The notes under the pieces were generated by a model. It saw only the letters and a program-made list of their open reading frames with translations, was not told the DNA's origin and did not search any database. This document shows, one piece after another, positions 3,012 through 61,700 of a stretch of 64,000 nucleotides of DNA (position 1 is its first letter; the number at the start of each line of letters is the position of its first letter). This DNA is from Isoetes taiwanensis (Eukaryota > Streptophyta > Lycopodiopsida > Isoetales > Isoetaceae). The stretch lies in contig JAJEKV010000002.1 of assembly GCA_021234155.1 (NCBI GenBank), forward strand, positions 33,619,123-33,683,122. Direction: 5' to 3'. The position numbers and the translations under genes are program-made.

Positions 3012-3325
3012 TTTTTTTTGAAACGGTTCATCAACTTGTAACGCGTTGCAAGGATTTTATTATTTATTTTAATATTGTTATTTGAAATGCGTTTCAATTT
3101 TGAAACGCGTTTCTGTTTTTATTATTTTGAAACGCATTGCAAGTTATTGACGCGTTTCAAACTTGTTATGCGTTACAAATCCGTTACGCGTTTCAATTGA
3201 CCCCATCATTCGTGACGCGTATCAAATCAACATTGTAACGCCATTTTTTAATTATATTATAATATTATTTTAGTTCAAAAAAGCGTATCAAAAAGCGTTA
3301 CAAGCATAGGGGTTTTCTTCTAGTG
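3012..3325. mobile_element. CACTA element terminus with AAACGCGTTTC subterminal repeats
   Basis: On the minus strand, position 3325 starts CACTAGAAGAAAACCCC, a typical CACTA (En/Spm-type) terminal inverted repeat. Next to it, 3025-3300 holds many degenerate copies of a near-palindrome around AAACGCGTTTC and GTTACGCGTTTC, as expected of the subterminal binding sites of CACTA transposase. I could not find the partner end, so this is a truncated copy or the other end is unrecognisable. Confidence 0.7.
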
Positions 3326-4092: not shown

Positions 4093-5990
4093 TAGAGGTT
4101 GACATTGTCGCTTGACTTTGCTAGAGTGTAGGATCTTGTTTGGACTATGTCTGTTGGATGGATTTTCCTTAGTTACTCATAGTAATTTGGGCTTAAAATT
4201 TTTGCAATGGCACTTCACTTTTGAAGTTCTTTGGCTACTTTTAGTTCTTTGGCATGACGTGGATCCAGCTATCTTTTGGAGAATTAGGAGTTTAGTTTTT
4301 CTTTCTCATGCTCGTGTAGCCTCATTTTTGTTTGCAGAGTTCTTGTTTTTTAGTCCACTTCTCATTAGACCTTTCAAATCGCTCTTTCTAGTTTCTCGAG
4401 GCATTTTCAGTTGATGCTACTTTGTCGGGCTTTGTTGCATGAGTTGCTTGGGGTTTCCATTCTTTGCATTTTGAGGTTTTGTGGTTTTGGACACTTGTTT
4501 GTACTCCTGTATGTTTGGTTTGATGAAGCCTTTTGTTTAGGTCCACTATTTTTTTCTTCGCGAGTGAATATGTTGTACTATTTTTTTTCTAATTGAGTGA
4601 GTATGTTGTGTTTAAGCTTTCGGAATTGCGATGGAGGTGTGGTGGTTTGGACACGTGTAGTCCCCACCCCTTGTTGATGGAGCTATAGTTTGATATTTCG
4701 GCGTCCGTTGATGTTATTTTTAGTGAGTCAGGTCCCTGCGTTCATGATCTTTTCTCGTTGATGTTCCTTCCCTTGCACTTCTATTTCATTTTTGTGAGAT
4801 GCTCTAGGATTGGTTCTTTTCGGCAATGTTTTGAGTGCTAAACTTATGTTAGTTTAGACTTTTAGTTTCTTGTCTTTCTGCCTCTTTTTTCAGCATGTTG
4901 TTGCATTGTGTTGGTTGAGTACAAGTAGGCTCTACAAGTGCGATTTATCTGCGTTTTGAGATTAGCAGATAAATACGCTTCTTGGGGCTAGTTGTGAGAG
5001 TCCCCCTTGGAGTATTTATAGACTTGTTGCATTCCTCCCATCTTCATCAGCCGTCTTTGAGCCTCCCCCTTTGTAGTCGCATGCCCCACCCCCCCTCCCC
5101 TTTTTTAGTTTTAGCCCTGCGTTACAACCTCGCGTGATTGTAGTATTCTTATAGTCAATGTCTTAGTTTTTTATGTTGATTGGCTCCTTGTTCGACTTCT
5201 TGATCTTGCGAGGTTATCTTGTACAATGGGTTGGAGGCTCTCATGCCAAGCATTGTTGTTGGGGCAACTCTTATGTCTTGAATGTTGGGTTTTAAGTGGG
5301 GTCGATGTCGAGGGCCCTTGCGCCATGGTGGTAGGCCCTCGTATGCCAAAGATGTGGCAGCCTTTGTGCCAAGATTGGGGTCCTCGTACCAGGTGTTTCT
5401 TTGTTCCTTTTGCAGACCTGCTCAAGATGGATGTGGAGACGTCCTTTGCGAGTTTTGCAAGAATCTTGACATGTTGGGGTCGTGTTGGACATTAGCGACG
5501 GAGGCCTATGATCTCTATGAACTTATTTGAGTTTTGGATCCTTTGTGGTACTTTGATGCTTTTGTATACCCAAAAAGGCCGGTGTGCATGAGAGATTATT
5601 AGAAGTGAAATATTGTTGTACTGCTATTTTGGAAACAAAGGGGAGGGCCACATGGCTCATTCATTCATCAGCATGTTGTTGCATTGTGTTGGTTGAGTGC
5701 AACTAGGCTCAGGGGCTGAAGTTTTATTTTAGGTATGTCTACTTTCCATTTCAGTTGAAATTTTGCTTTTCCCATTGGAAGATAAGCTTTTCATGAGTGA
5801 ACAGAGTGAACACAAACCATTACATCCAACACTTTTAAATTAAAATCCCTCTGAAACCCTTTTTGGTTTGGGTGCATATCCACATGGGGTGACTCTGGGC
5901 ATCGAGAGCTATTGGATGGGCATATTTGCAGGTTATTCATCAATCTAGATCATAGATAGCGATCCTCGTTTGTGGGGTATGCTCCGACAA
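4093..5990. repeat. Repeat-derived, T-rich DNA with a direct duplication and a hairpin
   Basis: No coding region can be supported. A block with TGTTGCATTGTGTTGGTTGA occurs at about 4891-4932 and again at about 5670-5713, giving a direct repeat 780 bp apart. A perfect 10-bp inverted repeat (ATTTATCTGC, 12-bp loop, GCAGATAAAT) lies at 4943-4974. Several frames of 60-90 codons at 5150-5530 overlap on both strands and look like chance. Confidence 0.45.
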
Positions 5991-6060
5991 AACAAGATTG
6001 CGTATTAAACGGGAGCAAATCATCGAAACGAGAGCGAAAGGAATATTCCTCAAAGATTCC
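5991..6060 (+). repeat. Left terminal inverted repeat of the two-gene element
   Basis: Starts AACAAGATTGCGTATTAAAC and ends ...TCAAAGATTCC before a T-run. Matches the right end in inverse orientation with a 16-bp length difference in the middle. The outer limit is uncertain by a few bases. Confidence 0.7.
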
Positions 6061-8027
6061 TTTTTTTTTTACAAAAGGGGGTAAAACGAGGTGAAAAAAA
6101 AAGATGCATGAAATTCTATTTTGATCCCCCCTCCCCTCCCAAAGTGACTAATTTTTTTGTGCAACGAAAGAATTGACTTTTTTAAAGTGTCAATTTTCTT
6201 AGCAAATAGAATGTTCTTGAAGTATATTTTACGAGAGAAACTCTAATTTCAGAGGATAAAATATTTAACAAAAAATTGAAGTAAGTCCGTAACTGAAACT
6301 GTAGTATTCTCAAAATTTGAAGATAGAATCTTCATATTCACATGCAAAATTTACAGTCTTTTTCTAAGACTCAGTTATGTACAAAAGTGTGAGAAGTGAT
6401 GAGAGAGGGATCCAGGACGTCATCATGTTCATTTATGCCATCCTCATCACCTTCACTTCTTTCACTGTCACTAGAGGAAGTGCTTGAGTTATCTTCCTCA
6501 TCACTATCAACAGATGGTGAAGCATTGCCACCACCTTCTTCATCCTCTTCTTCGTAATTACAAGCTTTTTTAAGCAAATTGATAGTCCTCTGGCGTAGAC
6601 GATTGTCAGATTTCAATTTAAAATCATAGCACAATATAGTCACGTCATTAAGGATCAGCTCATCCCTACAATCCACCTTCTTGGACTTTCTCCCTTTTCG
6701 TTGGCTTCTCATTTCTAACTCATATCTACCTTCAAAAGCATTTTCTGAGCGTGTTGCAAGCCAATGAATCTTGAGTTTAGTGACTAAGCCTTCCTCCTTG
6801 ACTGTGTCAAGCACTTTTGCTATCCAGAAAGGTCGACCTTTGTCATCCTCCTCAGTTGGAAGAGCAATTAGCATACCCTTGGTAATTTCTGTGATATTAC
6901 CTTGAGGCTTATTCCTGCGTCTTGGTCCGAGGTACATGACTCGATCCTCGTCTTCTTCTACTGCAGGTGCTAATGTAGCATTGCTTGGACCTGCTTGGTG
7001 CTGGGGTTGATGGAAGGTGTTAGGCCATTGAAATGGTTCTTGCAACTATCTTAGAGCTATATTTTTTGCAACAATTTTCTGTTCGAGAAAGAAATTACTC
7101 CACCACATCCGAAATTACTTCAATGGCTTTTAAGGATAACTCTGGGGTACTTTTCTTCTGCTTGGACTCCTTAGGATTTTTGAGAGGAAGTTGCTCAGCA
7201 CGTTCTATGAAGGAAGTGTCTGGAATATATTTAAGGAAGCGTAACCCCTCTGGTGGACTCCAGTCCTTAGTTGTGGTATACTTCTTCCTCTGTAAGAAAC
7301 TCTGGCCATCCTTCAAGTAGAACTTGATGTGATGTTGAAAGGTGAGATCATTCAATTTGTTCACAGCTTGTTCTCTGTCTGAACGTTGAGAGAAAATAAA
7401 CTCTCTGAAATCAGCAGTCTCTTTAAGAAGATCGATCACTGGAGTGGGAGTGTAAGAATCTTCAATAATTCGAACTAAAGTAGGAAGAGAGAAAGCCTTC
7501 TTCCTTCTGAGGCGCACAGAAAATCTGCTGAACATTTGGTCAATTTGATCATGAGTGTGGCCTACAAGTAAGAAACCCAGCTTCACTTTTCTAAAGATCC
7601 CTAGCTCCACTAACATGGCACAGTACGCAAAGAGTGTTTGATTCTTGTTCTCCCTTGTAGTATTGTCAAGTTGAAGGTAAAGCACTGGTGGTAATTGCTC
7701 TTGCTCGCACAGGACCTTGTTAAGAATTGTAATTGTGAGGTTCGGGTCACCATGCAAGTTTGGATACGTCAAAAATACTTTGCACTTTAGACTTCCTTTG
7801 AAGACCATAGCTCCTACAAGGTGGACCTTAATAAAACATTCCTCTTGCACATCTTTAGGAATATTCAAGAAATGCGGTAGAGTAGTTTTTTTTTTTGTCC
7901 ATTCCATCAATCACAACAGACATATATTGCAGTGGACGTTCAAGAGCTTTTTTTCTGTGTTTGGCAAAGTTTCTTCTCTCTGCTGCTTCTTGTTCACGAT
8001 GTCTGGCAAGGTTCTGTTGCACAATAT

Positions 8028-8094
8028 CTGTAGAAGAAATCAGGTCAAAGAATTTTCTTTAAAACAAGTGAGAGATTGGAGAACATGAGCTTAC
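8028..8094 (-). other. 67-bp GT-AG intron in the transposase-like gene
   Basis: Minus-strand GTAAGCTC at 8094 and TTCTTCTACAG ending at 8028 keep the frame between ...GREVERS and DIVQQNLARHREQEAAER. Its size matches two of the introns of the divergent methyltransferase gene. Confidence 0.65.
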
Positions 8095-9890
8095 TTCTTT
8101 CGACCTCTCTGCCTTTTGCGGTTTCTCGTTGACTCTTTAATTCTCGCACACCTTGAGCAAAATGACATTCTATGTCTCCCAGGGAATTTTCACTAAACCC
8201 AATTCACTTTTCCACACACCGGTGAAGTGTGAGTAAGAGATGTCTTTGAAGCCGAGTGCAAGTCTCTTTGTACTCATTAAAAACATCTTTTTTTGGTGAT
8301 GTTATCGTTAAATGATACATGTTGTCGTTAGGTAGCTTCTCACATGTTTCTCTAAAATATTTCTCCATCCATGACACAAAAGAAGGCAAGGGCATGCATG
8401 GTTACAACTCTTCTTGGTCCACAATGATCATCAATTGCTGGATTTTGTCCGATCTTTTGTGTATTCTAGACATTCTGGTGGACCCTAAACGGTGGACAAC
8501 CATAAAGCATTTCGGCAAACTTCTTGACGGTTAATGTAGTGCAAGAAGGTGTTGCGGTCCGGTCTTACATGATAGGCCAAGTAGGCATTCCGGTCACCAA
8601 TGTCATTGAACCAGTAGTTGTCTCTAATTGCTCGTAATTTAGCCATGTTAAATTTGTTGATGCAACCCAATGAGCAGCATTTACTTCTTAAAAGTCTTCT
8701 CATTTTATGCTCGTCCATAAGGTTTCTTCTTCTTCTGAGGGAGCATGCTCTCAAACCATAATCCACCTTGAATTTCTTGGTGGACTGGCTAGAGAATGTG
8801 TAATCTCGTTGCACTTCGTTGGTGTCTTCATCTTCTGAAGAGAGTTCTACTCTGGAGGTGACCTCTTCTACCCTTAGTGGTGTGCTTGTAGAGGAGAACA
8901 AACCACGTGAAGCTGTACCCGGATAAGGCAGAGGTACAGTGTTGAATGAAGGAGATGGGCCACCATATGATGTGCCAGCGAAAGTTGTTGTAGCTTCTTC
9001 ACAAGGAGTTCGTTCAAACATGTCTCTTATAGCAGACTGATATTCTGCAAACCCATGTGTCACCACGGTTGTGTGAAGAAGAGTAGATGTTGCAAGGTCG
9101 TCTTCATTTGTAGTGAAATCATGGTGGGAGAAGCTCTGGTGAATCTCGCAGTCTGCAGAACGTGCTGTATTCCTTGTTTGTGTAAGTGAAGCTGGAGAAA
9201 CTACAAATGGCTGAGGTAGTCTGTTTCGAAAAATTTTCTGAGGTCGAGCATTTACAGTGTCGGGGGATGGTACAAATGGTGGTGGAAGATTGCTATGTGC
9301 AACAGGTGAGGGTTGGAAAGGTGGTGGCAGCCGGTTTCCTACTGGACTTGGAGAGGGTTGGAAAGGTGGTGGCAGTCTACTAGTTACACTACAAGAGAAG
9401 GGGTCCATTAGTGTCACCAAAACGTCACCACAATATTGAAAAGTGTACACTATGACATTACTAGTGACATTTTTACAGAAGTGATGCTACAGATGCCACA
9501 ATTTGTGTCACCTATAGCCTCACTCTTTGTGTCACCAACAATGTCAGTAACTTGGTTACGACACTATAGATCTTGCTATTAGCATCAAGTATAGCGTCAC
9601 CAGTTGTTGCACATATAGCATCAGTGTTAGTGTCAGTGCCCACTTGTGACATTATAGGTGGTGCTATTAGCATCATATATAGTGTCAGTAGTTGACACAT
9701 ATATAACATCAGTCTCAGTGTCATTGTCCATCAGTGACATTATAAGTGTTGTTATTAGCATCAAATATAGTGTCAGTAGTTGCTACACATATAACATCAG
9801 TGTTAGTGTTAAGACCCACTTGTGACATTATAGGTGGTGTTATTAGCATCAAATATAATAGCATCTTTAGTGTCACACGTTTTGTCAATG

Positions 9891-10110
9891 TTTGAGTGGT
9901 CATTAGCATACAGCCCCCCGGGGGAGCGCTGCTAGGATAGGCTGCCTCGGGAACTTTTTTGGGGTCCGCCTCCTGGGGTTGGGACTTTCCCCTTTGGTGA
10001 GGTGGCAGTGCAAAGTTCTGGCCATGTTTGGCTTTGGGAAGGGTGCCAGTCATGCTTGCCCAACAACAGGCTGCCTGGACCATTTAATGAACTCTTTGAT
10101 CTGAACCTTA
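9891..10110 (+). repeat. R1 repeat fragment inside the CACTA element
   Basis: The block from GTGGTCATTAGC through CCCCCCGGGGGAGCGCTGC to CCCAACAACAGGCTGC is a diverged copy of part of the 1.1-kb R1 unit at 51310-53809 (compare 53214-53405). It is GC-rich against AT-rich surroundings, so it was inserted or captured. Confidence 0.85.
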
Positions 10111-12784
10111 TTTGCTAATTTCTGGCAAATATTTGGCATACGAAGTACCTGGAACCATTGGTTATGCAAGCACTCGACATAGAATAAAATCCCTTTGCAT
10201 TTCTTGAATGTCATACATACCACCGTGTCAAACGTCTATTTGTGCACTTCATGACGGAAGTTTATATGGGCACACAAGACTAAAATGCTGGCCTTAACTT
10301 ATAAAGGCACCAATTGATAAAGGCTTGTAAATCCAACACAATGCACATGACATTATAGTGATTATTGGGACTTCAAGTGTGCACACAACTCTAGGAAAAG
10401 GGTCTTTCCGAATTAAATGCCATGGCTTAGGGAAAGTGGAACAATCCTTGAACTGATTTTTATTGGCTTTGTGTTTCTAACCTTAGCTTATAGATTGGGA
10501 CTTGTTAGTTCAGCACACTAGACACACATCTGGCTAACACTTGGTCTATCCGGGGCAAAAAATTGCTTTGTGGGGTACATTATGCAGATATGCTTGCAGA
10601 TATATTTGCCTTACTTCTCAAAGGAAGGAAGCAAGTAGGAAATGGGATTTTTTTCGCAGAACAAGCTATTCAGATGCATGTGTTTGACCATGCATGCGTT
10701 GCACCCAGAACCATAAATCTCTGTCAAGTGCAAGGGGAGTCTCTAGCTATGCTCAAACAATATACAGGTTGTCTAAATTTGAGCCACTATGGACTGCAAA
10801 AAGAATTTTCCTTTCAACCTTGTTTTTCCTGATCGATCATTTTAAATGATTTTATTAGCTTATCTTGGTCCATTACTCCAACAACACCACAATTAGGCTC
10901 ATAACTTCCGTTATACCACTTAAGCCTAGCCAAGACTGCCAGCGTTTACTCCTTGCATTAATTATTATGTGAATGCAAACTTATAATATTTATTATCCTC
11001 GTCAATACAATCATTTGTTTTAGCATTGTTACACACTACATGGTCTTTCCTAGATTAATGTTCTCCTTTTTATTTTATTTTATTATTGCTTTTTTCTTCT
11101 CTTTTCTTTTATGTATAGGGAAAACAAAAGGTTAACTTATTAATAACTTATGGAATTATTGGAACTTATGAAATTGTTAGGTTTTAGTTAAAATTTTTGT
11201 TAGGTTTTCACGTTGAAAATTGGTTTAGGGCAAAACCTGCTTCGAAAGGGCAAATGACCAAAGAAATCCGGCTTCTTCCTTTGCAATCGATCCGACTCCT
11301 CACCATCTCTGCTATGGCATGATCAAATCGGCCGATTCCCTCCTTCCTCAACTCGGTTTTATCTCTATTCTCTTCTCAGGTTAAGCATTCACCCGATGAT
11401 GGTTTCTGCAGAATGAACAGCCCATTCTTTGGCTCCAAGGTAAGCAATCGGATCTGGCTTAGGGTATGGCAATACAGATGGAGCCGGCGGCTATAGGGTT
11501 GTGGCGTAAGATCGGGTTTTTGCGTGCTCTATCTTCCAAGCATGGGCGCTTTTGGCAAGGGGACCAAAGCAATCCTTTGATCTGGCAAAGGGCTTCTAAG
11601 TTCTTCCCGATTTATAATTTATAGCGTAACTACAGATAAGAGGTTGAGGTTGAGATAAAAACTACAGGAGCATAACGAAACTATAGCATGAGGTTGCATT
11701 CTGCCAGCAGAGTTGGAAGCATCATATTGGACACAAATTCCTCTTATCTGTGCTTGCTATTGTTACATTTCAAATTTTAATGCCTTCGAAGTTGTTGCGG
11801 TGCAAAGATGGTCTCGCCTATGTCTTTGTTCCCATTGTGGTAAGAATGGGAAAAACAAACCGAAATCAAGGATGCATGCACCATGAAATTGCCTCTATAA
11901 GTTGATTTCACAGTAAAAGCTCTCGGATTCCAATGGGATCCAATGTCGAATGTAGTGCTAACTGCCTGTTCTATTGTTGCTGCAAAGGAGACAGGTTGAT
12001 TTGGATTCAAATATGAGCAACCCCTGCCTCAAGTGCAGCAGAAACCAGGTTTGTGGTTGTTGAGGTCGGCCTTGTGACATTACATGCAGATGGACATGTT
12101 TAGAGTAGCCAGAAGCTATATTGCATGCCAATATATTGTGTGAGATAGCATAGATTGTGTGTTGGATATGTGAAGAAGTTTGAAGTAAATTCATTATTCT
12201 AGCTCTTCTTGACGTCAATGCCTTGAGATACATCATATCTGTAAAGTAAGTGTGAATGTGCTAGGTGCTTGTTTGCTGGTTGTTATTGCATGGAAATATA
12301 TGTTAGATAGATTTCGATTCAAATGTGAGTAGCCCATGCCTTAGCTACAGCAGAAGGCAGCTTTGTGGTTCTGGCCAAGTGCAGGTCCTTATTTCTTGCA
12401 ATGGATTGGATGCAATTGCAGGTTTTTGTTACCATGTCATGTGTATGTTCAGTTGCAACCAAACTTTATGTGAGCCATTTGAAACAGCTTGGAAAACGAA
12501 ATCCTTACACATGGACTCCAATTATTCCAAAGAAGTGTGCGAAATGGAGAAGGTAGATCTGACTTCTACACTTATAGTTATATATATAGGGATTTCATAT
12601 TCTATGGAGTAAATCTCACATTTAATGTGCTTAATGGACTCATTATACAAAGAGGCTGTCTGAATTTACAGTTGTTTTGTTCTTTTACAAACATGGTATA
12701 TCATGTGGAATGTTATTTTGGGAAACACCGCTCGCTTATCCCGGCGGGGGTTCAAATCCCCTTAATTCCATCTAGCTTGACAAA
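10111..12784. other. Internal CACTA sequence, mostly unassigned
   Basis: A possible captured 5' exon at 11413-11439 encodes MNSPFFGSK, followed by a clean GTAAGC donor, and lies downstream of a C/T-rich leader-like stretch (11270-11400). A block at about 11994-12072, with GATTCAAATATGAGCAACCC, recurs diverged at about 12307-12385. A frame at 10563-10832 (89 codons) matches nothing I know. No transposase domain is visible. Confidence 0.4.
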
Positions 12785-13630
12785 CAATCACATCTAAATG
12801 ACATTATATGACCGTAAGCAAGACATAAACAGTGGCATTTAAACATTTAACATTTAATGATAGAAATATCTCATCTAGTGGCATAAGTAGTGCCACTATA
12901 TATGTGGTAACAATGCATCAACAAATGACATTCATATTGACAATAAAGTTGTCATTAATATTGACAATATAAATGACAATGATATTGAAAACATCGATGA
13001 CATTATTTATGCCTTTACGAGTGACAATGAACTTGAGAAAATAGATGGCATTATTTATGCCTTTATGAGTGACATTGATCTTAAGAAAATAGATGGCATT
13101 ATTTATGACTTTATGAGTGACATTAAAGTTGATATTAGAGCCGACAGTATATATGGCATAATTTCTGACAAAAGTTTTTGCATTATGAATGGTGTTATCA
13201 ATGACCTTACATATGACATTGCCAATGAGGTTAATTGCGACGTTATAAGTGACACTATATTTGACGTCGCCACTGACGATAAATGTGACGTTATAGGTGG
13301 CGTTGCCATTGACGTTATAGGTGACAAAGGTGCTGACATTATATATGACATTCTAAATGCCATATTTGTGTCACCTGGCTGTGTCATCCATAGCGTCAGT
13401 GATCAAAAAAATTGGAGTTGCAATTTTAGCCCCAAAATTGACACAATCAATGACACTAATGGACCCCATCTCTTGTAGTGAATTACTGGACTCGGAGTGT
13501 CTTCGAGAAGCAACAAAGACCTTGTCGAGGTAGGTGTTGAAGAAGCATCTCCGTCTTGTGTTCCATCTAAAGTAGAGGTACTTGGGCAAACAAATGGTGG
13601 TGGAAGTTTGTTCACGAAGCGGTTAACCAT

Positions 13631-13965
13631 GTTAAACAACTGCAAAAAATTGTGGGCTTGTTACTAACTCACAACTCGTTTGGACTAATGATATTCGAGA
13701 ATACAAATGCTATTCCAGAATACTAATTTATGTGCAGCATTTGCTGTGTGTGTGCACAGATGCTATTCCAGAATATACTTGGCCAGAGTGTTTGGACAAG
13801 ACGTATTCCGCATCTCATAGAAACATACAACTGACGGTGGCCTACCTTTAAAAAGGAAAATTGAGCGCCTCAGTTGCGTATTCCGCTTCCAGAGATTTAG
13901 TCGCCAGCCCGAGCGCCTTCCGATCTCTATTGATTTGCTGTATTCCAATTCACATAGCAAAAATA
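13631..13965. promoter_or_regulatory. Shared intergenic promoter region with palindromic sites
   Basis: This short gap separates the minus-strand start of the transposase-like gene (ATG at 13630) from the plus-strand ATG of the methyltransferase gene (13966). It holds three copies of the TATTCNNGAATA palindrome, centred near 13697, 13716 and 13769, plus half-site-like GTATTCC at about 13803, 13881 and 13942. No clear TATA box was identified. The placement suggests one bidirectional promoter for both genes; that is inference. Confidence 0.55.
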
Positions 13966-16900
13966 ATGGACAGGTAAGCAATTAAAGTACATAGTACGTC
14001 TTTCGTGTGTTTCCTGATTTGCTTTTGTAAGCCAAAGTGTATTCCAGAATACACTTTCCGCTTCTGGCGAAGTGCAAAGTGTATTCTGGAATACACTTTG
14101 CTCACTGCCGAAGAGCAAAGTGTATTTTAGAATACACTTTGCCCAGAGTGTATTCCAGAATACACTTTGCCCTTCAGGCGAAGAGCAAAGTGTATTCCGG
14201 AATACACTTTGCACTACGTCTGAAGGGCAAAGTGTATTCCGGAATACACTTTGCCAATACACTTTGCCCTTCAGCAGTGAAAACGCTTGTTTTTTTGCAC
14301 TAAAACACCACTTTTTAGCTGAAACAGACCACTTTTTAGGTTGAACATACCACTCTTTAGTTAAATCAAGACATAAAAAATTAAGTTAGAGCGACAATAT
14401 TTGTGCTTGTCTTCTGGTCTTTTGTTGGCCTTTAGTGCACAAGATTAGTAAATCTTATTCTGGAATATAGCTTTAGTCTCATTTTCTGTCTTAACATTGT
14501 TGTTTTAAACGTTTCAGTGGCAGGGAAGAAGGAAGCAAAAGGGCATCAAAAAAAACTCTGAAGATTAGGCGTCCACACCCTCAAAAGCACACCGCTGACA
14601 CGGACGAGCCAGCTATTTACGAGAACTTTCAAACGCAATGGTTCATTACCAGGGGTGCAGACGGAAAATACAGCACACTGACGTTTCTGTACGTCTGTAA
14701 AAGTGCCGGGAACAAAAGGTACGCCGACACAGAGTTCGTTAACCTTGGGGCAATAAAAGAGGTCTCAGAGGTAGCCGGACAAGGTGGTCAGGTGGGGAGG
14801 CTATCCTTCAAGACCTCCCAAGGGTTCATTGTTGTAGACATCGCATTCTTTAGAATTGTCAGTGTGTAACCACATGCACTGTACAAATTCTTTTCACACT
14901 ACCAGACCAAACGTAGCCTGTGTTCACTAATTAGACAGGTTTGTTCTAGTACAAGCGAAGACTTTCCTGTAAGTGAGTCCGAGCAATCAGATGGAGGATC
15001 ATCACCTTCTCCTAGTACTTCCGGGGGGGTCATCAGATGGAGGGTCCCAAGAACAAGAAGAGGAAGTTCCCCCAGTGCCGCCAAAGAAACTCAGCAGGCC
15101 AAGAGCCACCATAGCCGCTAAGGAACCAAAGAAGCGGAAGGTACAGCAGCTTGAAGTTGCAGAAATCCCCGAGGAAAGCACAAAAAAACAAAAGGGAAAA
15201 GGAAAAGCTCCCGGGGTAGCAATAAAAGAAAAGAAAGTTGATAAGACCTCCGAAAGAATGGAGGTAATAAATGCCAGAAAAATTTGTACAAGGGGTGATC
15301 TATCTTCCTGTAACTTGCATGAGGCTGCCCCCAAAGAATGAAGCTGGTGAAAGGCCGCTTCAGGTTCGTAAAATATATGCCAACCACTTAAGGAACCTGA
15401 AGGACAGAATTAGGAGCAATCCAAATGCTCATGTGGCGCCAATAGTTGTCCTTGTTGACAGGGAGCAATGCAACACCCCCCAGGACTATGACAGAGAAAA
15501 AGCAGACACTTACATTCACTACGTCTTGGGAGGAAATCATAGCTTCAAAGCAAGAAGGCAGCTGTACAAAGAAAAAAAAAACCCCAGGTATCTCTCCGTC
15601 CTGTGCGCCGTCTACTGTGGTCTCACCGACGAAGAAGCAAAAATCGTTGCCAACACCCACAATGCTGACAACGAGTACAAACTAAAGATGAGCTTCGTCG
15701 ATAAGATCCGGTTCATGCACAGGGAGTACATGATATTTAAACAAAAATATGGAGAAGATTTGAAGAAACCAGCGTACTCTTTAGAACTGAAAGAAGCTTG
15801 CGCTATGGAGTGCTGCCTCAAGTACGACGAGGCTAACAAATGGCAGTCACTCATACCGCATGACAACTAGTTTCAGCTAGCCTTCAGAGACGGCAGAGTA
15901 AGTTTCCTTTGTATTCTGGAATAACCTTGTTGCCCTCCAACTGACCTCGTTTAACACTGTGCAGATATGGGACCTACAAAACGAGATTTTTACCATGTTC
16001 GAGCGTGGTGAATTGAAAAGTAAAGGAAAGGTCTCAGAAAAGAAAAAAGGTTCTGATGTCCCAAAAAAAGAAATGACGATAACTGTGTGGAGAGAAATGC
16101 AGGGCTTTACAGACATGGACATACTAGAAAGGCTACTGCAGAAGGTCGTAGACAAGGAATTTACGCTCGAAAATATGTCCAAGGAACTGCACAAGTAAGC
16201 ACGACAGAACTTTCGTTTTAGGTTTCCTTTCGTAGCACAAAGTGTATTCCAGAATACACTAGGGATCAGCGTGTGAGCTGAAGTGTATTCCAGAATACAC
16301 TTTGGATCAGCGTGTGGCCTGAAGTGTATTCCGGAGTACATTTTAGGTTTGTGAGAAGCCAATTTATATTCTGGAATACAATTTGGATTCTGCGGGTAGT
16401 CTAGAGTGTATTCCAGAATACACATCCGCTTACAAGCCGAAGGCAAGGTGTATTCCGGAATACACTTTTGCTTCACGTTGAAAGCCAAAGTGTATTCCAG
16501 AATACACTTTTCCTTCACGTTTAAAGCAAAGGTGTATTCCGGAATACACTTTGGCTTTTAACGTGAGTCAAAAGTGTATTCTGGAATACACTTTGGCTTC
16601 TTCTTCTTGGTGTTTTCGTTTTCAGGAAAAGAATACTCATTTTGTTTCATTGTTGTTGACTTCCAGCCAAAAAAACGTTATTACGTGCCAAACATGTTTA
16701 ATGGAGCAGTTGAACGTGGACAGCTGGGACATGTGTAAAGAGCTCTATCCCATTGCTACTTCCGACGAGCGTATTATTCAATACGCTCCAAATTTTGAGG
16801 GCTGGGTACGTCCTTTTCCTGTTTTTAAAGTTTTTTCTTTGTGTTGCATGAAGCTGACTTCAATTACTAACAGAGCAAGAAGAAGAACAAGGACCTGCCA

Positions 16901-18114
16901 GAAGGTTTTATGCACCTGGTACGAACAGCCAGAGAAGAGAGGACTTTAGCGGACAGGCATGTTGTAGATGCTGAGCCGTTCGACTACGAGAGGTTTTCTA
17001 TGTTCGATCAAAATAACTTTTATTCTATCGTTCATGGGGACTGCACTAAGTTGCCAGGAAGTATAAAGCCACAAGATTTTACTTTGGTCATAGCAGACTT
17101 GCCTTATGGGTTTAAGCTGAAGGATAGCCGCTACGACGATCAGCCTTTCAAAAACTCAGAATTCAATGCTTTCGTCGATGGAATTAAGCAGGTTACCACA
17201 GCAAAACACTGGCGTCTTGTTGTGTTCCATTCCAGCATGCAATCCGGCCTTGTGGAAGCTACTTTCAAGAACCACTTCGGTTCTCCTGTGCAAGCCGGTT
17301 ATGAAAACATGGTCTGGTGAGTCTTTAAATCAAGAGTGTCGTTCAAATGTTCTTTCTTTCAAGTTTTGTTTCATAGTTGCAATTCTAAACCGTCAGGTTC
17401 TATTCTGGAATACGTACTTACTATTCTGGAATACGATCTTGCAGGTACAAAACTAATATTAACTACCATGGTGGAGGACCGAGGCTGCTGAGCAAGGTTG
17501 AGTATTTCCATGTAACTTACTGGAGTTTCGACGGGAAGCGTACCATGGAGCACTTCAACACAGCAGCCTGCCAGAATTTTTCTAATGTCCTAGAGTTCCC
17601 AGAAGTATTACAGAAGCTCCAGGACCCAAGTGCACAAGGCAGAATTGTCAATCATTATCAGAAGCCACAGAAGCTAATCAACCACATTCTGGACATGTTC
17701 TCACGTCCAGGAGATTGGGTCCTTGATGCTTTCTCTGGCTCTGGTACAACAATAGCATGTGCACTTAAAAAGGGCCGTAATTGTGTTGCTGTTGACATTG
17801 ATAAAGAGGCTGTAGACTTCATCAAGATGAGGTTGTCTGCTCTACCAACTCTACCAGATGAAAATCAAGAGCTAGGAGCTAAATCATCATCAGATTTTGC
17901 CAAGATGACATCCTCTGAGATACAGCCTCCTTTTACAAGCTCTCTGGAAGATGAAGCTACTTTTGCAGAGCTCAAAGAAGTAGCTCTAGCTACTATTCCT
18001 GAAGAGACTGTAGACACCAGTAAAGATGAAACAGTGACAAAGGAGCAAATTGCAGAGACGGAGAAAGCTGGAACGAGCACACAACATACTGAGGACTTTG
18101 ATTTAGACCTCTGA
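13966..18114 (+). CDS. ParB-like domain / beta-class DNA amino-methyltransferase fusion (disrupted copy)
   Basis: Exons 13966-13973 (ATGGACAG), 14518-14865, 14950-15897, 15965-16194, 16667-16805, 16874-17316 and 17455-18114 have GT-AG borders, and all junctions I can test agree in phase. Parts in order: an unrecognised 115-residue domain; an acidic/basic linker with a PKKRKV-type nuclear signal (15126-15143); a ParB-like domain with LGGNHSFKARRQL (about 15528-15566); a helical region that could be an HTH; then the methyltransferase. Motif IV is ADLPYG (17093-17110, DxPY type), motif X is QKPQKL (17659) and motif I is FSGSGTT (17731-17751). The IV-X-I order marks beta-class N4-cytosine/N6-adenine enzymes. 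Damage: a frame change near the G-run at 15029 (perhaps an unmodelled intron), one in the A-run near 15278, and an in-frame TAG at 15868. The methyltransferase exons are open. Confidence 0.8.
14034..14265. repeat. Palindrome array 1 in intron 1 (six sites, about 42-bp spacing)
   Basis: Copies of GTGTATTCYRGAATACAC, with AAA/TTT extending each arm, are centred at 14045, 14087, 14128, 14156, 14198 and 14240. Spacings are 42, 41, 28, 42 and 42 bp. A half-site (AATACACTTT) follows at 14256. Each copy is near-perfectly self-complementary over about 24 bp, while spacers such as GCTTCTGGCGAAGTGC vary. The array lies inside the 544-bp first intron of the methyltransferase gene. Confidence 0.95.
14461..14462. 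repeat. Single palindromic site near the intron 1 acceptor
   Basis: CTTATTCTGGAATATAG is centred here, 56 bp before exon 2. The core matches the array sites; the outer arms are degenerate. Confidence 0.7.
15898..15964 (+). other. 67-bp intron carrying one palindromic site
   Basis: The GTAAGT donor and TGTGCAG acceptor keep the frame (...AFRDGR then IWDLQNE...). GTATTCTGGAATAAC is centred at 15917, so even this short intron holds a copy of the motif. Confidence 0.7.
16239..16594. repeat. Palindrome array 2 in intron 4 (nine sites, 40-42-bp spacing)
   Basis: Sites are centred at 16250, 16291, 16332, 16372, 16414, 16456, 16498, 16540 and 16582. Successive spacings are 41, 41, 40, 42, 42, 42, 42 and 42 bp. 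The core is again GTGTATTCYRGAATACAC; CCGG, CCAG and CTGG centres all occur. Spacers share only partial similarity (GCGTG, CTTCACGTT), so the palindromes are better conserved than the DNA between them. The whole array sits in the 472-bp intron 16195-16666. Confidence 0.95.
17398..17435. repeat. Pair of palindromic sites in intron 6, 21 bp apart
   Basis: TATTCTGGAATACG is centred at 17406 and again at 17427, just before the TTGCAG acceptor at 17454. The 21-bp spacing is half of the array spacing, i.e. two helical turns. Confidence 0.85.
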
Positions 18115-18183
18115 GTTATCTTTTGCTATATTATTTATTATTGGCTACAAAATACTGCCATATTTGATGTAGTGAAAGAAATT

Positions 18184-18189
18184 AATAAA
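18184..18189 (+). terminator. Polyadenylation signal of the methyltransferase gene
   Basis: AATAAA lies 70 bp after the TGA stop, followed by an A-run and T-rich sequence. It is the canonical signal at an expected distance. Confidence 0.5.
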
Positions 18190-18410
18190 AAAAAGATTTT
18201 TATTTACGTTTTTTGGATGTCTTCGAATTCCTAGTAATGTTCCTGGTGTATTAATGTCTGGAATTCTGCCATTTTCAAGTGCTCTTTTCTACAAATGCAA
18301 GATCATCATTTTAAAGGAGCCTAAAATACATGATAAAATATTTTGTTCCACTTAAAATCCCCAGCTTCTTTTGAAAATGATCATTTTTTCAATCTTGGTG
18401 TTTTTTTTAA

Positions 18411-18465
18411 GGGAATCTTTGAAACGGGAGTGATGCAACACTCCCGTTTAATTTGCAATCCTGTT
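18411..18465 (-). repeat. Right terminal inverted repeat of the two-gene element, with hairpin
   Basis: Inverse of the left terminus: GGAATCTTTGA, then ACTCCCGTTTAAT and GCAATCCTGTT at the outer edge. It also contains its own perfect 11-bp hairpin, AAACGGGAGTG / CACTCCCGTTT, at 18422-18449. Confidence 0.7.
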
Positions 18466-21400
18466 ACAAGTTTTGATATACTGTATAATGAGGTTTGCAA
18501 AATACTATAAAGTTTGACGCAATGTAATTAATGGTGTTAATTTTATACATATAATCCGTTTTAGGAAGCACAAAATGGTCTCTCGCTGCCCTATGCCACC
18601 CCCGTGTGAAATTGCACCTAAACTAAAGGGAGTTTCTGGGGGATTTTGATTTAAAAGTGTTAGATATAATGATTTGTATTCGGGTGGTTCAAAAATTTTG
18701 GGACCCTTCGGGGCCCTTTAAGAAAATGGGTCCAAAAGAAAGAGAATACATATAGAAATTACAATAAGAAAGGCTCATAAATCACAAAAAATCACATTAC
18801 AATTATTTTTCAATTTGCATGAAAAAGAAGGAGATGAAATTGTAAGCACAATCAATTTGCATGAACATCAAGGAGATGAAATTGTAATTGCACAACAACA
18901 CAGATCACGTACAATTGTTGAGCTTTCAATGGAATAGAAAGCACTATAAGAAAATAATCAGAGCATCTTATGGGACTTGAACCCATCATGTCCTTCTATG
19001 ACTTGTAACTTTGAGAGGGTTTATGACCATATGTACTCCAATTTCAAGAAGCTTATAAGATGAACAAATGACAAACCATCACTTGCAAGAAGTTTGCCAT
19101 CAATAAACCACCATCATTTGACTCTGCATATAGCATCACAATAAACACAAAGAGTAGACCCACCGAAGTCTTCATGGTACTATCCTTCAATAGGCTAAGA
19201 CCAAGCTAATTGCAAGGAAGTCCCATTGAATTCAAATTGCTTGATAATTTTATCAGCAAGCATTCAGTACCCTTGCTTTAAAAACTCCTGCAGCTTGCTT
19301 GTAAGAGGTGGCTTTTCAACTTAATTCATTAGGCTTTGTAAAATATACAGCACCAATATCTACCATAATAAAGAATAAAGAAAGGCCATAGACGAAACCT
19401 TTACAACTCAATATCACCCTTTCTTTTTCCAGTTATCTAAGATCATTGCCTTTGTAGTTATTTCTGCACATAAAAAAGACTTACTTCATTCCAGAATGCA
19501 AGGTCTTTTGAGAGGTGAAAGAAGCAAATTTTGGAGTGCTTTAAAAGGATTGTTAGTGATTGGGCAACCGATGCCAAATATCTGTACAAACTCAGTATGT
19601 TATTTTTCTATAGAAGGAATGTGTGACGAGCCTGCCGAGTTGACCCTCCTGGCAACTCGGGATCTCGTCAAGCTTGCACTAATTCTAGGTTGATATTATG
19701 GTGAAGAATTGAATCTTCTTTTTGCACAGTTGAAATTATATACTCCAAACTCAATGGATAAATACTTATGAATTCAATGTAATTATGTGAAGTTAACATC
19801 CAAAGAGTTCACTATTCTCAACAAATGTAACAGCTAACTGTGAATAATTCAACCCAAAAGCTTTGATCAACCACGATCTTCAGCTGCACTGCTACCATCC
19901 CTTGCTCTTTCACTGTACATGCACTCACTGGGGTTAGTCTTTGTGACTAAGTGGGGATCCTTGGCTGCCACTATATGCATGGAAATACTCTGGAAATCTT
20001 GGATGAGCACAAACACAGACAGAAAATCCTACGTGAGTACAGTGCTAAGACAGTGACAACATAATCCAAGGAAATACCAAACTCTGAGCGACAAAAGCAA
20101 AGAACATAGCCAGAACAACAAAACATCAGAAACATAGCTCCGGGACAATGGGAAGCTCAGCCAGCCTACATGCAGGCCCTGTTAGCAGAGAAATGCCCAG
20201 CCAGCTCACATTCCGAGCCCCGTTGGCGGAGTTGGTGGGGTGAACCTCGTATGCGCATACCCTTCCCAGCCCACGTCTGGCGCTGGAGGACCTCTTACTA
20301 TGGAGTCACAAGAGTTGACGTAGCCTCCTGATCAGGGAAACTATGCCCGGTGTCACAGAGCACAAGAATACCACAAAGAAACACAGATGAACATGAGCAT
20401 GCCAGAGCAACCTAGGCCACCGAACCTAGAAGCCCAACCTCGAAGGTTCCAATAGACATAATCAAATACCAAGACAACAGTGGAACAATGCAAAGACCAA
20501 GACATGTGAAGTTCATTAGAATATTTGCTAAACATGTGCCTAGATCTTGCCATTGCCGAGGCTGCCCATACAATTTAACCATGCCGAAGTAGCTAACTCA
20601 TTGGTGATGATCATGATCACAATCCAAACATGTGGAGGAAGTTACGAGCCTGATTGTCATTGATGTAGGTCCAATATCTATGTACGTTACTGATCAAAGA
20701 AAGATACTAACATCTTCTATAATGCAAAACTTACCTTAAAATCATCCTCTCATGAGGAATACAACGTTCCATAACGTTTATACTTTGAATCCATTACTAT
20801 GATGCTCTTGATAAAATACAATGCAACAACTTGAAAACTTACAGTTATGCACTCAGACTAGCAGTACTTCATGCTATAGCCATATTCAAAAACCCCCCAA
20901 GCTTTACATGGCTCTCCTTGTACCAATGCGGACTCGTCTCAATCTCAATAATCCTTGATGTCAGATGACCGCTTATTCCTATTTCAAGATCCACATGCGA
21001 ACTTGATGCTGAAATCCTTGATGGCGAGGGGTCATTGACGCTCTATATCTGTGCTAGGCTACTTTCAGCATTAGCCCCATTTCCATGAGCTAAGAAAGAT
21101 ACTTTATCCCAATCCTTAAAATGTTACATTAGACAATTATTCAAACAATGCATATTCTTACTACTTATGATTATTCTGCTCAGCTCTTCATGCTCCGATC
21201 TCTTCTGCTGTTAAGCTCAAATGCAACCCAATTCCATCCATGGGTACTTAGCTCTATATTAGGACATGCAAATAAATTGATAAAAGCAGAAAATACAAGA
21301 CCAACAAGATAAAGCACAAAACACAAAATGACAAAAACATAACATGAACGCAAAATGGCGCTGGAGAACTCGGTGCCGGCTAGATCCAATCTAATTCTGC

Positions 21401-45930: not shown

Positions 45931-47200
45931 CTAGTGTACAATGGTATTTTCATGAGTCATTGAAGTTTTCAGAGTGGTTAGAGTCTTCAGGAATGGTGCC
46001 CAGCAACTTCCCTTTACCTCTTCTGGAACATTGAGGATATAATAGGCCGGGACAAGATAGTTGTTGAGACAGTAATCCAGCACATCAACTGTCTCCTTCT
46101 GCAACCATGCATAAGTGATGTCTAGTTGTGAGATTGTTTCTTCAACTGTATGGGAAGACAAGTAATCCAATGCTGGACACACAAACTTCTGCAAAAAGTT
46201 GTCCTCTTCCTGCTCCTTGAAAGGCATAACAGGAACGGTTGTGTGTGCAGGGTTTAGAAACCCTTTGTGTAGGCTGTCATCTACCAAAAAAATCATACCA
46301 TGATATTCAGGAAAATCCTCAAGTACAACCTTCAACTCCTTGGAAAAAAGTTGCTTTGCTGTGTTGGTTGGATGCTCGCATGCATAGCATTGCTCTTCAC
46401 CATATACCTTTAAGAATTTGGTCCGCAAATCTGGGAACAATGCATCCACCATATTCCTTGTATTTGTCACATTTAAGGGCCTGGACAGGACTCGAACCCA
46501 CTACCTCTGGAGTGGTAGCCGTGCAGCCTAACCGAAAAGGCCACGATGATTTGGATGAAACCGAATCACACGCTCCAGACCTGATAGTTAATCACTCTAG
46601 AGGTAGTGGGTTCGAGTCCCGTCTAGACCCTTAAATGTGACAGTATGATTTGGACAACTCATGCCCTAGTGGTGTGGGCAACCCGTAATAGGGTTGGGGA
46701 TCCAGATGGTTGTCGCCACACTCCTCGGTGTTCAGTCCCTTGCAGATCGAGTTCGGTCCGCCCCCAATTCCCCCGGTTGCAAGCCTTCAAGGAGGGGGGG
46801 CCTTGAGGGGAGGATAGTGTGACGATTAACTATCAGGTCTGGAGCGTGTGATTTGGTTTCGTCCAAATCATCGTGGCCTTTTCGGTTAGGCTGCACGGCT
46901 ACCACTCCAGAGGTAGTGGGTTTGAGTCCCGTCCAGACCCTTAAATGTGACAGTATTCCGAAGTAGAGAAGCACTCCAGATCACAATATCAAACCTCTGC
47001 AGTGCCCACTCCACAAACTCATGATACCCTAGTCTGCAAATGAGGTACTTACTTGCAGTTTCTTTCATAACATGGTTCATTTGAGGTGGAGGCAAGATTT
47101 TTTGGCCCATTCTCCTCTGTTGTGTCTGTGCCAGCACACCATTTATGTCAAGCACCATCAACTTCTGTCTGGATTCCCATCTCTCAACGTTTGCACCCAC
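45931..47200 (-). pseudogene. FCP1/NIF-like HAD phosphatase gene, split by a 488-bp foldback element
   Basis: The upstream half (47200-46958) reads KLMVLDINGVLAQTQ, an HAD motif I in which the second Asp is Asn, then RLGYHEFVEWALQRFDIVIWSASLLRNT. The downstream half (46460-45931) resumes with NTRNMVDALFPDLRTKF and GEEQCYACEHP, then LEDFPEY and FLVDDSLHKGF (motif III/IV region), and ends at 45931. Removing the insertion and one copy of its GTATT duplication joins the halves in frame. Upstream of 47200 the frame continues into a Gln/Ser/Ala-rich stretch without a clear ATG. FCP1-like enzymes dephosphorylate proteins such as the RNA polymerase II tail; the DxN motif is common in plant relatives. 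It lies tail to tail with the DDE-like gene, 170 bp apart. Confidence 0.72.
46465..46952. mobile_element. Foldback element with 129-bp inverted repeats containing tRNA-like sequence
   Basis: The ends read TGTCACATTTAAGGG and its inverse. The left arm 46465-46593 and right arm 46824-46952 are inverse copies over 129 bp. A 5-bp target duplication GTATT flanks it (46460-46464, 46953-46957). Each arm holds a tRNA-like block: TGGCCTTTTCGGTTAGG (A-box-like), an anticodon-stem-like CTACC...GGTAG, and GGTTCGAGTCC (B box, best in the left arm). A third partial copy of the terminus lies at 46598-46648. No coding capacity. Confidence 0.88.
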
Positions 47201-54496: not shown

Positions 54497-54644
54497 TGGC
54501 ACAAAAGTGACATTTATGCTCCGCCTTTTTATGGAGCATAAACGTCACTTTTGTGCCATTTGAGGAGCACAAACGTCATAAATGGCACAAAAGTGACGTT
54601 TATGCTCCATAAAAAGGCGGAGCATAAATGTCACTTTTGTGCCA
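54497..54644. repeat. Perfect 62-bp inverted repeat, each arm itself a hairpin
   Basis: 54497-54558 and 54583-54644 are exact reverse complements. Within each arm TGGCACAAAAGTGAC and its inverse form a second hairpin (26 bp with one mismatch) around GCCTTTTTAT. The 24-bp centre also contains GGAGCACAAACGTCA. The unit occurs four times in 148 bp. Confidence 0.95.
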
Positions 54645-61089: not shown

Positions 61090-61700
61090 AATGACATTTT
61101 GACATCGCGGGGACATTGCATGCATTAGGGTTTTTTTTAGATTAAAAAAGGGCCTTCAAAACATGCCAACTAAGCCAAATGAAGATAAATGAACTACTAA
61201 TCAGAAATCAGAGCCTGACGGGTCCAGTCAGCAAAATTGTTGTAACTAACTCACTGGATCACATTTTCTAGCATAACTATTGACAGAAAAGTCTAAATGA
61301 GCTCTCGTTTAGTGCAATAGATAGATCTCGTTGAGATCTTTCCAACCTTAGGTGCTTTTCACATATTTTAACCACTTATGATTGTCAAAACTCAAAAAAA
61401 TATGGTTTTTACTATTTTTTACTATCTTACGGGGCTAAAAGATATGCAAACCACCCAAAGTTGGAAAGATCTCAATGAGATCTATCTATTGCACCAAACA
61501 AGAGCTCATTTGGACTTTTCTATCAACACTTATGCTAGAAAATGTGATCTAGTGAGTTAGTTATAACTGTTTTGCTGACTGGATTACCAATTCTATTTTC
61601 TGATTGGTAGTTCATATAGCTTAGTCAGCAGTTCTTAGAAGGCCCTTTTATGATCTCAAAAAATCCCTAATGCGACGTCTTTTGTTATAGTGATGTCATT
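61090..61700. mobile_element. 611-bp foldback (MITE-like) element
   Basis: AATGACAT at 61090 and ATGTCATT at 61693-61700 bound two long, imperfect inverted arms of roughly 250 bp. Examples: CATTAGGG...GGGCCTTC and its inverse at about 61640-61676; CCAGTCAGCAAAA and GTTAGTTATAACTGTTTTGC; AGATCTCGTTGAGATCT and AGATCTCAATGAGATCT. The loop is at about 61345-61440. No coding capacity. Confidence 0.8.

Follow-up and report, generated by a model that had tools for sequence, protein, structure and literature searches.

A DNA transposon family of Isoetes taiwanensis with a ParB-like methylase gene and palindrome arrays as its candidate targets

Introduction

The closest described system to the element examined here is Sola1-1_Ec32 of the brown alga Ectocarpus, a 21.5-kb Sola1 transposon in which a gene for a 1,104-amino acid (aa) protein, ParB-like and with a methylase for N4-methylcytosine or N6-methyladenine (4mC or 6mA), lies on the strand opposite the transposase (PMC12477816). 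In its accessible text, the same paper proposes that ParB-like/methylase proteins bind and modify their own transposon, and it cites green and red algal cases of similar proteins (Iyer 2011; Petroll 2025; its references 50 and 51). Here we analyze a 64,000-nt stretch of the genome of the lycophyte Isoetes taiwanensis (contig JAJEKV010000002.1, positions 33,619,123 to 33,683,122; hereafter the window), which holds one copy of a transposon in which a gene for a DUF7869 protein and a gene for a ParB-like methylase stand head to head. The original prediction for this DNA, made from the sequence alone, described a mobile element that pairs a transposase-like gene with a ParB/methyltransferase gene in a plant, and its author knew of no description of the combination; the land-plant setting was right, but the pairing is already present in Sola1-1_Ec32, as the accessible text describes it.

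Sola elements have 4-bp target site duplications (TSDs), terminal inverted repeats (TIRs) and a transposase with an aspartate triad (DDD), and are mostly 2-9 kb long, some exceeding 15 kb (PMC10741241). The available part of that source records them from a moss and as seemingly uncommon in flowering plants.

Results

A large DNA transposon family with paired genes

The window holds one copy, which is dead, of a large cut-and-paste DNA transposon family, and we have hardly any doubt that this mobile element carries a maintained methylase of the ParB-like, beta-class kind. Searches were made in a genome of 1,658,258,908 bases in 1,110 contigs; pattern counts cover the whole genome, whereas homology searches scored the best candidates only, so that copy numbers are lower bounds. 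Further copies (L001-L010 and others) were cut from the genome for comparison with the window copy.

The two termini are identical at 22 of 25 bases (5991, AACAAGATTGCGTATTAAACGGGAG; 18465, in reverse, AACAGGATTGCAAATTAAACGGGAG). A genome-wide count of the terminus pattern AACARGATTGCRWATTAAACGGGAG gives 467 occurrences (250 + 217), and the reversed control gives 0. An exact 4-bp TSD flanks 12 of the 13 copies with both ends (window included), in twelve different tetramers: GCTA, CCAA, TCTC, AAAC, TTAT, ATGT, CTTA, AACA, TTAC, AAAT, GAAG and, in the window, ACAA. The TCTC duplication (L003) is less certain because it sits in a CT repeat, L011/L012 is the sole exception and has no TSD, and L005 and L010 were left out of the count because one end only was found. 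Together with the gene-less elements described below, 16 of 17 two-ended copies have a TSD of exactly 4 bp. Eight long two-ended copies span 7.4-8.8 kb. In the window, the distance from gene end to terminus is 380 bp for one gene and 351 bp for the other, in agreement with the 350-380 bp of the original prediction, whose shared inverted ends and ACAA duplication are borne out as well. Its view that two genes fill the unit holds for the presence of both genes, but 9387-13482 is a nested CACTA insert, missing from all ten other long copies aligned.

When the flanks of the window copy were joined without the element, 39 of the 40 best-scored matches were other copies, 80-85% identical, of a ~390-bp repeat spanning the join, and the remaining one was the right flank of the window copy itself. 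The empty site is a repeat resembling a miniature inverted-repeat transposable element (MITE). Alignment of copies and a search for empty sites, both proposed beforehand, defined the ends, the 4-bp TSD and the insertion site.

A methylase match lies within 30 kb of 41 of the 142 scored transposase matches, where 0.8 would be expected by chance; 38 of these pairs are head to head and 26 are spaced 5.1-6.5 kb. The lists compared are the best 142 transposase matches of 9,595 candidates and the best 150 methylase matches of 3,608. Of the best 40 left ends, 7 have a scored right end no more than 25 kb away and 7 have a transposase match no more than 10 kb away; of the best 40 right ends, 14 are within 5 kb of a methylase match. 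One TIR pair encloses both genes in copies such as L004 and L008. The termini and the two proteins, used as queries as had been suggested, co-occur in the genome; the refuting condition named in the original prediction, termini and genes found apart, did not arise, and the transposase-methyltransferase pairing stands, with a ParB label that is less secure (see below).

We observed that L008 is about 93.5-94% identical to the window copy in the transposase half and about 75-83% in the methylase half. To judge by these values, the halves seem to differ in history, as if exchanged between subfamilies.

The transposase and its probable superfamily

The motifs LQLDNTTRENKN and GHTHDQIDQ are kept in most copies that align at the DUF7869 domain, and the open frame over the exon of this domain measures 271 aa in the window, with lengths of up to 987 aa elsewhere in the family. 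The domain carries two conserved Asp-containing motifs; a single-sequence AlphaFold model reached a mean confidence (pLDDT) of 35 and was hence unused, and a literature search for DUF7869 found no paper. The Isoetes element shares the 4-bp TSD of the Sola superfamily (16 of 17 two-ended copies), and its TIRs and size (7.4-8.8 kb; 12,475 bp with the nested insert in the window) fit the range of that superfamily. The DUF7869 protein is probably a Sola-type transposase, and we infer a DDD enzyme of this type, cutting at the TIRs. TSDs measure 3 bp in CACTA and PIF/Harbinger elements and 8 bp in hAT elements. They measure 7-12 bp in Mutator elements, according to the available part of PMC10741241. 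We rejected membership of all four groups on the 4-bp TSD found here.

A bacterial-type methylase under purifying selection

The second gene encodes a bacterial-type protein in which a ParB-like part is joined to a beta-class amino-methyltransferase. The methylase part matches PF01555 at E 4e-18 and PHROG 67 ('DNA methyltransferase') at 1.9e-20, and its motif IV (exon 4) precedes the S-adenosylmethionine (AdoMet) motif (exon 5), which is the beta-class order. Nine solved structures match, the named ones being CcrM, MboIIA, RsrI and DpnA, which are N6-adenine enzymes. Of 18 aligned sequences, 14 show D-L-P-Y or D-I-P-Y as motif IV, L005 has DLSY, and L024, L028 and L034 are out of frame at this point. 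An N4-cytosine methyltransferase of the SPPY type was rejected on this motif. Judging by the closest solved enzymes and by the Asp of motif IV, the predicted activity is somewhat more likely to be N6-adenine than N4-cytosine methylation. Phage relatives of the methylase number 651 records at E up to 1e-3, with 26-34% identity in the ten listed. A search for viral-contig relatives by peptide patterns gave 11 stretches that fit a pattern, none of which was confirmed.

The ParB-like part matches PHROG 1033 ('ParB-like partition protein') at E 2.3e-4 in L006 and 0.007 in L008; with such values, the ParB label should be taken as weakly supported. PKKRKV, a classical nuclear signal, is present in the window and in 7 of 10 long copies. 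In the window, the gene is broken by two in-frame stops and a frame change (exon 1), and in L008 most of exon 1 is a single 464-aa open frame, itself shifted near its end. Splice sites were inferred from GT/AG and conservation between copies.

The pooled ratio of nonsynonymous to synonymous differences (pN/pS) among intact copies is 0.227 for the ParB block, 0.275 for the N-terminal block, 0.115 for exon 4 and 0.259 for exon 5, compared to 0.332 for the transposase block; the comparison is rough, as the intact copies were not the same ones for every block and other families entered some of the sets. With decayed copies kept, the methylase has pooled values of 0.18-0.27, the transposase one of 0.56. 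These ratios point to purifying selection on the methylase, with a constraint that is apparently no weaker than that on the transposase.

Phased palindromes between the genes and in the methylase introns

In the window element, repeat units were seen that contain the palindrome GTATTCCAGAATAC. Genome-wide, the palindrome TGTATTCYRGAATACA occurs 6,021 times compared to 2 in the reversed control, pairs of palindromes at 20-30 bp gaps 2,471 times compared to 0, and AAAGTGTATTCCGGAATACACTTT 1,474 times compared to 0. Of the 21 ATTCnnGAAT sites of the window, all but one belong to the element, and these 20 fall within 13693-17432. In the 11 gene-bearing copies (window included), 152 such sites occupy the intergenic space and the introns of the methylase gene. 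Not one is to the left of the transposase gene's start, and no exon, as mapped from the window, contains a whole site; one site touches the edge of an aligned protein block. The stretches read around these 11 copies contain no ATTCnnGAAT outside the element.

Neighboring sites up to 130 bp apart are spaced 40-43 bp in 99 of 120 cases, approximately four helical turns. Conservation was measured in 45 units chosen for their place halfway between two perfect ones: it reaches 80-100% at the 16 palindrome positions, 78-98% at the adjoining AAAG/CTTT and 29-76% over the remaining spacer. Choosing such units lessens selection for the motif, with the offset still fitted to it within two bases. The overall form of the palindrome is GTAT, a six-base core and ATAC. 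Among 243 palindrome centers (window, L001-L010 and L019-L028), CG accounts for 91, CA for 72 and TG for 55, a ratio that suggests host 5-methylcytosine at CpG and its decay. At least 16 contigs among the places listed bear arrays, and each has at least one array in or beside an element of the window family; ten were assigned from fetched stretches and six by match coordinates. As far as searches show, in the open-access literature and the accessible text of PMC12477816, these transposon palindromes are undescribed.

One locus (L022) shows the left terminus of the family directly inside the palindrome of another array, twice, near 3118-3160 and 7360-7400, approximately 4.24 kb apart. This arrangement is possibly a nested insertion followed by duplication.

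Gene-less elements keep the arrays

Five fetched stretches (L020, L021, L023, L025 and L027) are gene-less elements. All four that are two-ended have a 4-bp TSD, keep the palindromes and measure 3.2-4.3 kb, and what they share with the window element is mainly the termini and the arrays. Their arrays are set back from the termini, by ~360-500 bp on one side and by 470-840 bp on the opposite side. L027 aligns to the other gene-less elements, and no termini were found in its fetched stretch.

Other DUF7869 families hold palindromes with other cores

We sampled eight loci, outside the first list, from the top 15 of a DUF7869 Pfam search (best 150 of 9,910 candidates). Their transposases are 60-63% identical to that of the window family, and in five of them (L031, L032, L034, L036 and L038) a ParB-methylase gene stands head to head with the transposase gene, its ParB part 30-53% identical. 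TGTATTC palindromes and AACARG ends are absent from all eight. Seven hold alternative palindromes instead: GTATGAATTCATAC in L031 and L032, and GTATAAATTTATAC in L034-L038. GTAT, six bases and ATAC are common to all three palindromes, and the TCCGGA core is clearly different. GGTATRAATTYATACC occurs 7,350 times genome-wide compared to 0 in the reversed control. At the five methylase-bearing loci, none of 85 sites falls in the coding blocks tested; the sites are mostly between the genes or between methylase blocks, with a few beyond the last block.

We also noticed that the right end of another DUF7869 family, near 8483 in L031 and near 1297 in L032, finishes ...CGTTGTT, and that a hairpin-like stretch and a AAGGAATCTTT block at these right ends resemble the window element. 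Going by these letters, the DUF7869 families may be related at their ends too.

Feature coordinates and neighboring repeats

Table 1. Features of the transposon copy in the window (positions are those of the window)
Feature	Position	Strand	Remarks
Whole transposon copy	5991..18465		12,475 bp including nested insert; TIRs, 4-bp TSD, empty-site family
Target site duplication ACAA, left	5987..5990		
Target site duplication ACAA, right	18466..18469		
Left terminal inverted repeat	5991..6015	+	Terminus match and genome-wide pattern count
Right terminal inverted repeat	18441..18465	-	Terminus match and genome-wide pattern count
Transposase gene	6371..13630 (approximate)	-	Open reading frames; broken by nested insert
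DUF7869 domain, presumed DDD catalytic core	7095..7910	-	PF25273 E 6e-53
Nested CACTA element	9387..13482		TIR CACTACAAGAGA, TTA on both sides; inside transposase gene; foreign to the family
Intergenic palindrome sites TGTATTCYRGAATACA	13693..14466		Between head-to-head genes; array 14033-14253, mostly 42-bp steps
ParB-methylase exon 1	14519..15897	+	N-terminal domain, PKKRKV stretch, ParB-like domain; splice site inferred from GT/AG
Single ATTCnnGAAT site, intron 1	15913..15922		
ParB-methylase exon 2	15965..16194	+	Frame conserved in copies; splice sites inferred
Main palindrome array, intron 2	16240..16600		Mostly 41-42-bp steps
ParB-methylase exon 3	16667..16805	+	Splice sites inferred
ParB-methylase exon 4	16874..17316	+	Motif IV ADLPYGF; splice sites inferred
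Two palindrome sites, intron 4	17402..17432		
ParB-methylase exon 5	17445..18114	+	AdoMet motif DAFSGSGTT; PF01555 E 4e-18

The nested CACTA insert is marked by a 30-bp inverted pair (I20); it has two additional A at its right end and internal 48-bp and 88-bp tandem repeats. The insertion target of the transposon, at 5808-5990 and 18470-18681, is a copy of the ~390-bp MITE-like repeat with ~100-bp inverted ends, which is abundant (4,528 candidates; best 40 scored). A larger element bounded by the outer inverted pair 5808-5908 and 18580-18681 was considered and rejected, since this pair is formed by the inverted ends of the target repeat. More self-complementary or inverted repeats, possibly other MITEs, lie at 61122-61673, 54497-54644 and 46465-46952 of the window.

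Discussion

We propose that these transposons may recognize their own DNA through a protein that they encode, most likely the ParB-methylase, a reading to which we give an even chance. Its parts differ in strength. As the arms are constant, the cores differ between families and the elements carry a ParB-like methylase, the palindromes look like the target of an element-encoded protein that diverges together with its site, and it is highly probable that they are binding sites of such a protein. The ParB-methylase is our first choice as the binder because the sites are concentrated in the methylase half of the transposon and because bacterial ParB binds clustered palindromes, and we lean toward it over the transposase. 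Whether the element DNA is actually methylated by this enzyme is, on present sequence evidence, a balanced question. As a potential mechanism, the ParB-like part would bind the palindromes as a dimer, several molecules would load onto one face of the DNA, and the methylase domain would thereby reach any member of the same family, whether it carries genes or not. The resulting mark, or the array with its bound protein, could then tune the expression of both genes and set 'own' DNA apart from the rest, which would either favor transposition or counter host silencing. A stricter version, in which each ParB-methylase would methylate only DNA with the palindrome of its own family (constant GTAT/ATAC arms, variable core), gene-less copies included, is more doubtful; we lowered its probability because no phasing is evident in L031 and L032 and because, of the three cores, two are close variants of each other.

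Several observations weigh against self-recognition through the ParB-methylase. Among the other families, no methylase was found in the stretch read at three of the eight loci (L033, L035 and L037), and L033 has neither a GTATGAATTCATAC nor a GTATAAATTTATAC site. The steps in L034, L036 and L038 scatter around 28-32 bp, with some of 21 and 41-42 bp, and in L031 and L032, each with nine sites, most neighbors are over 70 bp apart and no phasing is evident. The cores of these 18 sites are mixed (GAATTC 10, AAATTC 4, AAATTT 2 and AAATTA 2), and GAATTC and AAATTT are near variants of each other. In the protein, motif IV as D-L/I-P-Y departs from the textbook D/S-P-P-Y, and the ten listed phage matches hold one annotated N4-cytosine enzyme and one annotated adenine methylase. 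The ParB part reaches no Pfam cut-off (DUF6551 at 0.005-0.04), and tblastn, run at E up to 1, gave it no match among phages; in L008, a PHROG of unknown function outscores PHROG 1033, and the single-sequence AlphaFold model of the ParB exon has a pLDDT of 41 and was hence unused. PKKRKV is found in 8 of 20 sequences overall and in none of the nine other loci. Finally, 101 of the 142 transposase matches have no methylase partner within 30 kb among the matches listed; these cannot count as methylase-free, because only the best-scored matches were compared.

The palindromes might instead bind the transposase, as subterminal repeats of plant transposons do, leaving the methylase to an unrelated job such as TIR methylation that licenses or times transposition. 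This is unlikely on balance but a serious rival, because the gene-less elements keep the sites: they need a transposase in trans and have arrays at ~360-500 bp from one terminus and 470-840 bp from the second, and palindromes in such elements are equally expected of transposase-binding sites. The cores also differ between families whose transposases are 60-63% identical. What argues for a different binder is placement, as 0 of 152 sites in 11 copies lie left of the start of the transposase gene, so that none is near the left end, and the sites stand between the genes and in methylase introns, mostly so in the other families too. The same placement, with no site within mapped exons (0/152) or in the tested coding blocks of other families (0/85), would suit purely autoregulatory operators in a shared promoter region and introns, with the methylase acting elsewhere. 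We consider this improbable, since all four two-ended gene-less elements keep the sites, which indicates a role in cis, present or past, beyond these genes.

A neutral minisatellite spread by slippage and transposition, with the methylase as a passenger gene, would explain why the number of units varies between copies and why the spacer is partly conserved as well. It is much less probable still: one motif recurs in separate introns and in the intergenic region of 11 copies, its 16 bp are conserved while much of the spacer drifts, other families hold another core at similar places, and the pN/pS of the methylase is 0.115-0.275. The window-family core also contains TTCnnGAA, the heat-shock element, and sites for a host factor of this kind would make the transposon stress-inducible. 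This reading is hardly credible, given that conservation extends well beyond the TTCnnGAA core and that the AAATTT core has no GAA/TTC pair, and we rejected it on the evidence of the other families.

If the stricter version of self-recognition is correct, a mobile element in a plant would make its own epigenetic identity tag against the background of a silencing host. Self-marking of transposons by a bacterial-type modification has already been suggested (PMC12477816), with no target named in the accessible text; the Isoetes sites offer one that is directly testable. The original prediction supposed that the element could mark or protect its own copies; for this idea, still a hypothesis, the palindromes are a concrete candidate target. 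The Isoetes assembly is partly nanopore-based, and its raw signal, if kept, could reveal N6 or N4 methylation. The family may also provide a natural pair of DNA-binding part and methylase with switchable specificity.

Compared to known systems, the Isoetes element recalls bacterial ParB-parS, where a ParB-type protein acts with clustered 16-bp palindromes, although the sequence of parS and its role in the cell are unlike those of the Isoetes palindromes. KDZ transposons with TET/JBP genes, a parallel drawn in the original prediction, likewise carry a DNA-modifying enzyme on a DNA transposon, but one that oxidizes methylated bases, alongside another class of transposase. Bacterial-type amino-methyltransferases in eukaryotes also include N4CMT of bdelloid rotifers and the 4mC methylase of Marchantia, which are recruited host enzymes according to the available part of PMC8885841; N4CMT has SPPY and a chromodomain, whereas the Isoetes enzyme has D-L/I-P-Y and a ParB-like part. 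The green and red algal transposons have a ParB-like/methyltransferase accessory protein, and we liken them to the Isoetes element by the description in PMC12477816 alone. As far as that accessible description extends, the beta-class amino-methyltransferase domain of the algal accessory proteins and the position of their gene opposite the transposase also occur in the Isoetes element. Sola1-1_Ec32 has the methylase and transposase paired on opposite strands, as in Isoetes; it is 21.5 kb long, belongs to a brown alga and comes with no mention of palindromes in the accessible text, whereas the Isoetes elements measure 7.4-8.8 kb in eight long two-ended copies, belong to a lycophyte, form more than one family and hold thousands of sites with differing cores. 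The pairing of the two genes was already known, and the Isoetes families are, as far as can be told, new members of this group.

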